Positions 46,178-61,125 of a DNA stretch of 64,000 bases are shown here, one piece after another; positions within the stretch are counted from its first letter, which is position 1, and every line of letters starts with the position of its first letter. Source of the stretch: Salisediminibacterium beveridgei (GTDB lineage Bacteria; Bacillota; Bacilli; Bacillales; Salisediminibacteriaceae); contig NZ_CP012502.1 of NCBI RefSeq assembly GCF_001721685.1, positions 2,604,001-2,668,000 of the forward strand. Reading direction: 5' to 3'. A program made the translations under genes and the position numbers. The notes under the pieces were generated by a model. That model did no database searches. It worked only from the letters and a program-made list of their open reading frames with translations, and had not been told where the DNA came from.

Positions 46178-46274
46178 TCAGGACTTCAATCCTTTTTCTT
46201 TCTGAATTGAATTTACATTTCAATCGTTCATCGCTATACTGAATATAACGAAATCACGAAGATACGCCAACTTC

Positions 46275-46450
46275 ATAGCAACAGCAAGGTTCCCTGGGGT
46301 TCAACCCCGGGGTGAAAAGGGAAGCCGGTGTAATTCCGGCACGGTCCCGCCACTGTAAACACTGATCCGCTTAACAAAGCCACTGTGAACAATTGTTCAT
46401 GGGAAGGCGTTTTGCCGGATGCGACGTGTGAGTCAGGAGACCTGCCATGC
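46275..46450 (+). promoter_or_regulatory. Cobalamin riboswitch
   Basis: The conserved B12-box segment is present: GCCGGTGTAATTCCGGCAC, then GGTCCCGCCACTGT near 46343-46358. It is followed by GCCACTG, the GGGAAGGCG element and the closing GAGTCAGGAGACCTGCC near 46429-46446. It precedes the B12 uptake operon by 190 bp and should shut it off when adenosyl- or methylcobalamin is plentiful. No gene lies in the remaining leader. Confidence 0.95.
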
Positions 46451-46639
46451 TGTATTTTCAAACACCTTCGAGGAAAAGGATGTTTTACACTGTGCCGGTT
46501 TGGTTCGAACGCTTTCATTTGTTCATTCCTGCCTGACGCTAATGTAGAGTACATAAGCTGACGCTTTTCCTTCATGAGGAATGGCGTTTTTTTTCTTGCA
46601 TGATTTCGTAATTCAGTTTAACCAGGAGGAGAAGCACCT

Positions 46640-54393: not shown

Positions 54394-54423
54394 AAAGATA
54401 AGGAGAGACAGGAGGGAATGACC

Positions 54424-56358
54424 ATGCAAACCGAATCAACCATCATCACCAATACGAATGAGAGCTACCAATCGCAGTGGCTGAGATCCCTCATGAGACA
54501 CCGCGAATTAATTTTTGCCGGCTTGGGCGGTTTATTTCTTTTCATCGGATTTATCCTCGATCGCCAGGAAGTGAGCACCGCCGCGGTACTCTTTTTCATC
54601 TTATCTTATGGTGTCGGCGGCTATTACAAAGCAAAAGAAGGGTTATATGACCTGTTGAATAATACGCGGCTGAACGCCGAAATTCTGATGATTCTGGCAG
54701 CTGTCGGGGCCGCATCCATCGGTTATTGGGAAGAAGGTGCCATTCTGATCTTCATTTTCTCCATCAGCGGCGCACTCGAAACGTACACGATGCAAAAAAG
54801 TGAGAAGGATCTCTCTTCACTCATTTCATTGGCACCCGACACCGCGACAATCATCACCACGGATGGTGACCACAAAACGATCCCTTTGGACGATGTTGCC
54901 ATCGGTGACCGCGTACTCGTTCGTCCAAATGAACGAATCCCCGTGGACAGTGTCGTCTTACAAGGCCATTCCACCGTTGATGAATCAACACTCACCGGTG
55001 AAGCCGTACCTGTCGAAAAAATTGAGGGCAGTGAACTGTTCAACGGCACGTTGAATAACAGCAGCTCCCTGACGGTGGAAGTGACCCGCCGGAATGAAGA
55101 TTCTTTGTTCCAGAAAATGATTACCCTGGTCCAGCAGGCCAAGACTGAACGTCCGGAAACCCAGCGCTGGATCGAGAAAATTGAAGGACCTTACGTCATC
55201 ACGGTTTTGATTATAACTGCCCTCATGCTCATCATCCCATATACCGTGTTCGGCTGGCCGTTCACAGACACATTTTACCGGGCGATGGTCCTGCTTGTTG
55301 TCGCTTCCCCTTGTGCCATCGTCGCTTCGGTCATGCCAGCCATGCTTTCAGCCATTTCAACCGGCGCACGTAACGGGGTGCTCATGAAAGGCGGGGTATT
55401 CATGGAGCAGCTCTCGAAGGCTGATGTCATCGCATTTGATAAGACCGGGACAATTACAGAAGGTGCCCCGAAAGTGACGCACTTCCTCACGCACGATCAG
55501 GAATCACGTGTGCTGGACATCGTGTCTGCCATTGAAAAACAATCAAATCACCCACTTGCTGAAGCCATCGTATCGTATTGTGATCGTCATGTACCCAAGG
55601 GCAAGGAAAAGGTTGAACTGAACAATGTGGAAGACGTTACCGGCTTCGGTGTCAAAGCCAGTGTCAATGGTGATGCCTGGTATGTAGGGAGCCTCAGCTA
55701 CATGAAGCGTATGGATGTGGCTAAGCAGGATGATCAATGGATGTCCACCATCACTGCGTGGCAAAAAGAAGGAAATACCATCGTTTGTGTCGCAAAGAAC
55801 CATGAACTCGCAGGGGTTTTCGCCATTAAGGATCAGCTCCGCAAAGGCGTCAAAGAAACGCTTGAAACCCTCCATAAAAACGGGATTCGTACCGTGATGA
55901 TTACCGGCGACCAGGAACAGACGGCCAAAGCAATTGCGCAGGAAGCCGGTGTTTCCGAATGGTTCTCAGAGAGCTTACCGGAGGAAAAAGTCCGCAAAGT
56001 GGAAAAACTGAAAGAATCCTATACGTCCGTCATCATGGTCGGCGACGGCGTCAACGATGCCCCGGCTCTTGCGAAAGCAGACATTGGTATCGCCATGGGT
56101 TCAGGAACCGATGTTGCGATTGATACAGCTGACCTCGTCCTGATGAAAAATGATCTTTCCAGAATTAATCTGTCCGTCAACCTGTCCAAGCGAATGAACC
56201 GGGTCATTATTCAAAATTTAATTTTCTCTGTCAGCGTCATCTTGATCCTGATCAGCGCAAACTTTTTTCAAAGTCTTACGCTCCCAATGGGGGTCATCGG
56301 TCATGAAGTCAGCACCATTCTCGTGATTCTGAATGGACTAAGGCTGTTGAAACCCTGA
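54424..56358 (+). CDS. P1B-type metal-transporting ATPase (ZosA/PfeT-like)
   Basis: A 644-residue P-type ATPase. Actuator TGEAVPVEK, phosphorylation site AFDKTGTITEG, hinge MVGDGVNDAPALAKAD. The membrane metal site is SPC (VVASPCAIVAS), not CPC, and the last helices carry GHEVSTILVILNGLRLL. This is the P1B-4 pattern of Bacillus ZosA/PfeT, tied to iron (or zinc/cobalt) export. No N-terminal metal-binding domain. The ATG at 54424 has better spacing from AGGAGGG than the one at 54418. Confidence 0.9.
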   Translation: MQTESTIITNTNESYQSQWLRSLMRHRELIFAGLGGLFLFIGFILDRQEVSTAAVLFFILSYGVGGYYKAKEGLYDLLNNTRLNAEILMILAAVGAASIGYWEEGAILIFIFSISGALETYTMQKSEKDLSSLISLAPDTATIITTDGDHKTIPLDDVAIGDRVLVRPNERIPVDSVVLQGHSTVDESTLTGEAVPVEKIEGSELFNGTLNNSSSLTVEVTRRNEDSLFQKMITLVQQAKTERPETQRWIEKIEGPYVITVLIITALMLIIPYTVFGWPFTDTFYRAMVLLVVASPCAIVASVMPAMLSAISTGARNGVLMKGGVFMEQLSKADVIAFDKTGTITEGAPKVTHFLTHDQESRVLDIVSAIEKQSNHPLAEAIVSYCDRHVPKGKEKVELNNVEDVTGFGVKASVNGDAWYVGSLSYMKRMDVAKQDDQWMSTITAWQKEGNTIVCVAKNHELAGVFAIKDQLRKGVKETLETLHKNGIRTVMITGDQEQTAKAIAQEAGVSEWFSESLPEEKVRKVEKLKESYTSVIMVGDGVNDAPALAKADIGIAMGSGTDVAIDTADLVLMKNDLSRINLSVNLSKRMNRVIIQNLIFSVSVILILISANFFQSLTLPMGVIGHEVSTILVILNGLRLLKP

Positions 56359-60557: not shown

Positions 60558-61079
60558 ATGAGCAAAATGCGCATTGCTTTACTTGGATTTGTAACTGCAC
60601 TCCTCTTTACGCTCTCAGCATGCGGCAATGAGGAAACCATGTCTGCGGACGATATAAAAGCACTGGTAGATGAATACAGCGCGAATTTCGAAACCGGTGA
60701 ACTGGCGGCCATCACATCCGATGAATTGATCATCACGACAGAAGACCAGGAAGAAATCAGCCACGAATTGCCTGAAGAGGAATTCTTTGTATCCATTGCA
60801 CCTTATTTTGATCAGACCCATCCATGAACCATTCATAGCCTGACAGGTTGTCAGGGAGAGCTGAAAAACGAAACCTTTGCCGTTCATATTGAAGATCAGG
60901 ACGGAGAAGTCGTGATGGATGAAGAGATCGATTCATTGGACAATGGATTTATCGACCTTTGGATCCCGCGGGACAGAACGTATCAGGTCACGATTGAATA
61001 CGACGGCCACGTGACGTCTCAGGAATTATCCACTTTTGAAGGTGACGACACCTGCATTACCACGATGCAGTTTGACTGA
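60558..61079 (+). CDS. cueP: CueP-like copper-binding lipoprotein, selenoprotein (in-frame UGA at codon 90)
   Basis: From the ATG at 60558 (GAAGGGGG upstream) the frame meets TGA at 60825-60827 and then continues to TGA at 61077-61079, giving 173 residues. Lipobox LSACG (Cys 22). The part before the UGA ends FFVSIAPYFDQTHP. The part after reads TIHSLTGCQGEL, then GFIDLWIPRDRTYQVTI and DDTCITTMQF. CueP proteins have THPC at this point, with three conserved Cys. The first Cys is the UGA here, the second is 8 residues later and the third is near the end. A SECIS-like hairpin lies 17 bases after the UGA. CueP binds copper outside the membrane. Two adjacent pseudogene pieces are the alternative. 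Confidence 0.85.
60839..60855 (+). promoter_or_regulatory. Bacterial SECIS-like hairpin for UGA at 60825
   Basis: Perfect stem CCTGAC (60839-60844) with GTCAGG (60850-60855) around loop AGGTT, or 7 bp around GGT if the A-T pair closes. The loop begins 17-18 bases after the UGA with G at the first or second place, within the range known for bacterial SECIS elements. Confidence 0.7.
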
Positions 61080-61089
61080 TGAAAAGATA

Positions 61090-61125
61090 AAAGCAGGAAT
61101 CCGCCAAGAGCGGATTTCCTGCTTT
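61090..61125 (+). terminator. Hairpin terminator after cueP
   Basis: A 15-bp stem with one bulged T (61090-61104 with 61110-61125) lies 11 bases after the second in-frame stop. This placement supports 61079 as the true gene end. Confidence 0.85.

Follow-up and report, generated by a model that had tools for sequence, protein, structure and literature searches.

The genome of Salisediminibacterium beveridgei contains a member of the CueP family in which a TGA stands for the first conserved cysteine, and this gene very probably encodes a selenocysteine (Sec) form of CueP, with Sec inserted at the UGA. It is located in a stretch of 64,000 nucleotides, hereafter called the window, and had been proposed as a candidate selenoprotein in a preliminary description of this DNA. 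The recurrence of the UGA among relatives, the covariation within a downstream hairpin, the selection acting on both sides of the codon and the Sec machinery of the genome strongly support this proposal. Sequence, covariation and co-occurrence with the machinery were observed directly, and the actual insertion of Sec is what we infer from them. The features considered are the following:

60558..61079, plus strand: putative Sec-CueP coding sequence, ATG to TGA frame, 173 amino acids with the UGA (residue 90) read as Sec
60558..60623, plus strand: signal peptide with lipobox LSAC (Cys22), identified from the sequence; predicted lipoprotein on the outer face of the membrane
60825..60827, plus strand: UGA in place of the conserved THPC cysteine, equivalent to Salmonella C96 by spacing
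60834..60836, plus strand: His93 codon, conserved at U+3 in 79/79 UGA and 84/84 Cys copies
60839-60845 / 60849-60855, plus strand: stem of a bacterial SECIS-like hairpin with loop GGT at 60846-60848 (CCTGACA-GGT-TGTCAGG)
60849..60851, plus strand: Cys98 codon, aligned with the Salmonella copper ligand C104
61053..61055, plus strand: codon of Cys166, the third conserved Cys, by alignment
61077-61079, plus strand: final stop TGA of the Sec-CueP frame
61090..61125, no strand assigned: inverted repeat, possible terminator, terminator-like on the minus strand only in a terminator scan

The frame 60558-61079 reads with a single interruption, the TGA at 60825-60827, and its read-through product (THP-U-TIHSLTGCQGEL ... 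TCITTMQFD) has 173 residues, in line with the initial observation that the same frame resumes up to the third Cys (TCITTMQF). The product matches the Pfam CueP family PF21172 over nearly the whole mature part (E 4.4e-45, 153 bits for a cut-off of 27) and the NCBIfam model NF038094 (CueP_fam; E 3e-55, 186 bits for a cut-off of 60), and it stays under the cut-off of the narrower metallochaperone model NF038095 (130 bits against 195). A signal peptide and a lipobox, recognised from sequence alone, complete the CueP-like lipoprotein first described; with a crude pattern, a lipobox-like motif was retrieved in 61 of 79 UGA copies and 60 of 84 Cys copies. Salmonella CueP (4gqz), the only solved relative found, aligned over residues 45-170 (E 2.6e-26) and places U90 on the Cys of THPC, where the TGA had initially been located, Cys98 on the Cys eight residues further and Cys166 on the third Cys. 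In the metal cluster of this protein the first Cys is replaced by the UGA, hence by Sec if this reading holds, and the His at +3, the Cys at +8 and the third Cys are present. We take U90 to be the equivalent of Salmonella C96 if Cys98 is C104, C96 and C172 being the residue numbers that we assume for that protein. The AlphaFold model of the window protein has a mean pLDDT of 84.1. Like Salmonella CueP and the family in general, the protein displays a nearly complete mature domain, the THP-x-..H....C motif, the third Cys and export features; it differs from the family in having a Sec codon where the first of the conserved cysteines is expected, and from the Salmonella protein as a predicted lipoprotein of a Gram-positive. 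It is thus predicted to be a membrane-anchored, extracytoplasmic copper-binding protein.

The UGA-containing form is common among relatives of the window. CueP matches were obtained in 42 of 100 genomes (that of the window included), and in 30 of the 42 a copy was flagged for a TGA in frame, while the 67 CueP-containing genomes found among 299 of the same order were divided into 33 with a UGA copy and 34 without. A total of 187 loci was pooled from the genome samples, 80 loci of named genomes (the best 80 of 416 relatives) and 9 loci of a phylum sample, and the site was readable in 185 of them, a fragment (L115) and a locus lacking the motif (L211) being dropped. They represent 164 distinct cores, namely 79 with UGA, 84 with Cys (TGT or TGC) and a decayed one with Tyr (L093); the latter was excluded and one locus per distinct core was retained, giving a comparison set of 163. 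An earlier count with a stricter motif had given 76 distinct loci, with 3 spurious motif matches dropped and 15 loci lacking the strict motif. The search for the same U in related genomes, suggested with the preliminary description, thus retrieved TGA at the same codon in 79 of 163 distinct copies. A sequencing error for TGT or TGC in this assembly would require a single base, but it does not explain the identical TGA in 79 distinct related copies from many genera and its probability is negligible.

Named genomes with a UGA copy include Bacillus methanolicus DE0196, Cytobacillus firmus DS1 and NBRC 15306, C. oceanisediminis, Neobacillus niacini, Mesobacillus selenatarsenatis SF-1, Anaerobacillus arseniciselenatis and Salipaludibacillus neizhouensis. 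One genome (G065) harbors two CueP copies, one with UGA and one with Cys. In the phylum sample (398 genomes, 9 with CueP), the in-frame TGA was absent from the 7 CueP genomes outside the order of the window; a UGA copy with THDU was seen elsewhere in Ammoniphilus resinae (L189), assigned to Paenibacillaceae by NCBI, whose genome has selB. CueP relatives were also present in 23 plasmid records, all below 60% identity. In the protein database, the 120 listed of 1159 relatives all had Cys at the site, although this database may not display U. Three loci have further lesions. L093 (G192:C1:355219-356541) is a decayed CueP copy, the second in a genome that lacks selB; it encodes Tyr at the site, its second Cys codon is a TGA, and it contains one more stop. 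L088 (G001, same genus as the window) and L087 (G034, a genome 76% complete) carry the UGA and have their frame broken within T runs, a few codons upstream of it; these breaks were neither mended nor treated as programmed.

Should the UGA be a true stop, which is the default reading of this codon, the gene would be a pseudogene or would encode a truncated protein of 89 residues, the remainder being untranslated. The existence of decayed copies such as L093, and of L087 and L088 with their frames broken before the UGA, fits this explanation. It is opposed by the sharing of the TGA by 79 distinct copies and by the retention of the downstream metal residues, since the His at +3, the Cys at +8 and a Cys near +76 occur in all 163 distinct copies and hence in 79/79 UGA copies. 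It is also opposed by the substitution pattern, the median dN/dS being 0.11 over the 40 codons before the UGA and 0.12 after it (79 pairs of UGA copies with usable divergence, pairs sharing rows). Purifying selection past the UGA is as strong as before it, and the downstream half is free of the decay among relatives that had been envisaged as an argument against a selenoprotein. The comparison of the window with L009, of the same genus, gave pS 0.85 and pN 0.18 after the UGA, and pS 0.40 and pN 0.14 before it. We consider termination at this UGA as very improbable.

The hairpin downstream of the UGA provides a further argument for Sec insertion. Its stem starts 11 nt past the UGA and the apical GGU corresponds to codon +7; the perfect stem and the G starting the loop were as initially reported, but this G is separated from the UGA by 18 nt, not 17. 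Seven pairs (G-U counted) closed by a GGT loop were present in all 79 distinct UGA copies and in only 4 of the 84 Cys copies (Fisher p 3e-42, a value that overstates independence because the copies are related), 2 further Cys copies having all seven pairs around a different loop. The stem nucleotides also code for the peptide LTGCQG, present in 76/79 UGA and 67/84 Cys copies, and the difference between the two groups is therefore largely a matter of synonymous codons. In UGA copies, Leu is always CTG or TTG and Gly always GGT, and Thr and Cys are ACA and TGT except in a single compensated copy, which departs from both; in Cys copies, six codons occur for Leu, four for Thr, four for Gly and two for Cys. 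Moreover, the Leu and Gln codons covary in UGA copies, with TTG..CAA in 62, CTG..CAG in 17 and mixed combinations in none, with at least 5 changes of the Leu codon state along the tree. In the exceptional copy (L083), GCA..TGC replaces ACA..TGT, a compensatory pair change made at the cost of a Thr to Ala substitution. An intact element arose in 2.6% of independent draws from the codon usage of the Cys copies, and pairing is partly favoured in any copy because the stem lies within the coding sequence of a highly conserved peptide. Folds of 30 nt were more stable in UGA copies (median -7.3 kcal/mol) than in Cys copies (-3.5 kcal/mol), while over 60 nt, counted from the UGA, a different structure is favoured in at least one UGA copy (L026).

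The Cys copies with an intact hairpin and GGT loop are L166, L117, L193 and also L032. Robertmurraya siralis, which has selB, and Bacillus chungangensis and Ornithinibacillus bavariensis, which do not, are among the genomes with such Cys-CueP copies. The nearest neighbour on the tree is a UGA copy for R. siralis and B. chungangensis, whose hairpins may thus be relics of a Sec past, and Cys copies for O. bavariensis, where the intact hairpin is possibly due to chance.

All the components of Sec synthesis and insertion whose presence the preliminary description had proposed to check (selA, selB, selC and selD) were found in the genome of the window. The selB gene (348 bits for a cut-off of 242) adjoins a tRNA-Sec (63 bits; anticodon TCA by ARAGORN), selA is found beside both (Pfam SelA, 9.6e-138), and selD (L197) occupies G000:C1:3203246-3204172 with one in-frame TGA in the motif KAGUGCK, so that SelD is likely itself a selenoprotein. 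Two formate dehydrogenase-like genes with an in-frame UGA followed by His (L199 and L200, at G000:C1:1606300-1608315 and 796184-796936), one over the family cut-off and one below, are likely further selenoproteins. Both have GGT at the same offset, codon +7, as does E. coli fdhF. The CueP gene thus resembles those of SelB-dependent selenoproteins such as FdhA in combining a UGA with a downstream hairpin that bears an apical GGU at codon +7. It differs in its target, a predicted copper-binding lipoprotein, and in its loop of 3 on an uninterrupted 7-bp stem, whereas a loop of 5 is predicted for the FdhA-like genes of the same genome.

The machinery also co-occurs with the UGA copies. In the order sample, selB was present in 32 of the 33 UGA-CueP genomes (the codon was read in 32, and G238 was counted from its TGA flag) and in 10 of the 34 Cys-only genomes, with the same counts for tRNA-Sec (Fisher p 3e-9 for selB and likewise for tRNA-Sec, the genomes being non-independent). 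No UGA genome lacked both genes: G232 is without selB and G065 without tRNA-Sec, each having the other gene, in assemblies of about 480 and 200 contigs, respectively. In 12 chosen named genomes, selB was found in 8/8 with UGA-CueP and in 1/4 with Cys (R. siralis); at least 2 of these 8 overlap with the order sample, G717 and G724 sharing their selB places with G188 and G213. The machinery does not enforce the Sec form, since 10 of 34 Cys-only genomes possess it.

These observations also bear on a decoding of the UGA as Trp, or on its unspecific read-through, both independent of selenium. UGA is leaky in some bacteria, and here it is followed by an A. Such a decoding would leave the hairpin and the association with tRNA-Sec and SelB without a reason, the window gene itself terminates with TGA, and the distinct copies without UGA have Cys in 84 of 85 cases and Tyr in the decayed L093, but never Trp. 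We therefore regard it as highly unlikely.

According to the Sec reading, codon 90 would be recoded by SelB carrying Sec-tRNA-Sec, which the hairpin, beginning 11 nt past the UGA, would position through its apical GGU at codon +7. Sec would replace the first of the three metal-cluster cysteines, with His93, Cys98 and Cys166 kept as its partners. At neutral pH a selenolate is ionised, and it is softer than a thiolate. In CueP it would most likely act as a Cu(I) ligand, as the partner of another site Cys in a reversible selenenylsulfide, or as both, and a selenenylsulfide pair could take up and reduce copper outside the cell by giving electrons to Cu(II). The chances that Sec directly ligates copper appear about evenly balanced. 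Another possibility, to which we give slightly less than an even chance, is that Sec serves in redox chemistry (reduction of Cu(II), resolution of a disulfide, or reactions with selenium or tellurium oxyanions) instead of ligating copper. This would be consistent with PMC13188914, where most characterised selenoproteins are redox proteins, and with PMC13201067, according to which two disulfide reductase proteins of the Scs system, ScsB and ScsC, hand Cu(I) over to Salmonella CueP. In the latter source the effect of CueP on copper tolerance is abolished by C104S, and this ligand established by mutation aligns with Cys98, not with Sec. Conversely, PMC7558416 describes the conserved Cys and His residues clustered on one side of the C-terminal domain as the copper-binding site of CueP.

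A profile search of the genome of the window for SodC (PF00080) found none. The client known for CueP in Salmonella is thus missing here, which makes a role in buffering or detoxifying copper outside the membrane likelier than the feeding of SodC.

The evolutionary relationship of the two forms was examined on a tree of 163 rows and 141 columns, built with a quick method that left 77 of 160 inner branches open and in which L087 and L088, whose rows hold wrong-frame residues upstream of their breaks, both form long branches. The tree requires 21 changes between Sec and Cys, at least 7 of them forced by starred branches, and is silent on their direction. A single origin of the Sec form was rejected on this basis. 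The interchange of Sec and Cys forms in evolution suggests that Sec probably tunes the same job and does not confer a new one. Repeated switches within one metal site also provide a natural Sec/Cys series, which allows one to ask what Sec buys for copper.

The preliminary description knew of no Sec form of CueP, and none was found in the sources covered here. CueP, PF21172 and NF038094 do not appear in an inventory published in May 2026 that covers 119 families and subfamilies of prokaryotic selenoproteins (PMC13188914), nor was a protein resembling Sec-CueP found in the passages searched of PMC9312934, PMC12013277, PMC5029168 and PMC1794560; a table of 2006 in the last of these gives 3 selenoprotein families for Firmicutes/Bacillales. 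A full-text search combining CueP and selenocysteine returned only a hydroxyapatite paper with one mention of each, and subscription papers or preprints may describe such a protein; broader searches gave nothing to the point among the matches listed. Three selenoproteins in the inventory are likewise predicted and linked to metal handling, namely a CopZ-like (2Fe-2S) protein, the SO_0444 Cu/Zn efflux transporter and a cation-transporting E1-E2 ATPase, but their names and domain accessions there place them in other families, none of them CueP (PMC13188914). Sec-CueP would thus add to the bacterial selenoproteome a family absent from that inventory, and would link selenium to copper homeostasis. 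If so, automatic annotation probably cuts or misses the UGA copies. We put forward more tentatively, at just under an even chance, that this is a widespread and previously unlisted selenoprotein family in which Sec is a native extracytoplasmic Cu(I) ligand, making copper tolerance of many Bacillaceae dependent on selenium.

The CueP gene is flanked by a PAP2 family gene and an FMN reductase gene, neither of which is a copper gene. The inverted repeat reported as a terminator is present, but it starts 10 nt past the final stop, not 11 bp, and the scan gave it a terminator score for the minus strand alone. A scan upstream of the gene found no sigma-70-like promoter, and no copper operator was shared among 160 upstream regions, whose start codons were set by a rough rule. 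The near-palindrome CTACAATGTAG of the window, present in 1 of these 160 regions, was rejected as a copper operator and attributed to chance; TACAn(1-2)TGTA, present in 6 of 160, and a CsoR-like pattern, present in 0 of 160, were not retained either. Elsewhere in the window, a P-type (E1-E2) ATPase gene at 54418-56358, about 4 kb upstream of CueP, encodes a possible metal exporter, and a cobalamin riboswitch (Rfam RF00174, 122.8 bits) occupies 46270-46463.
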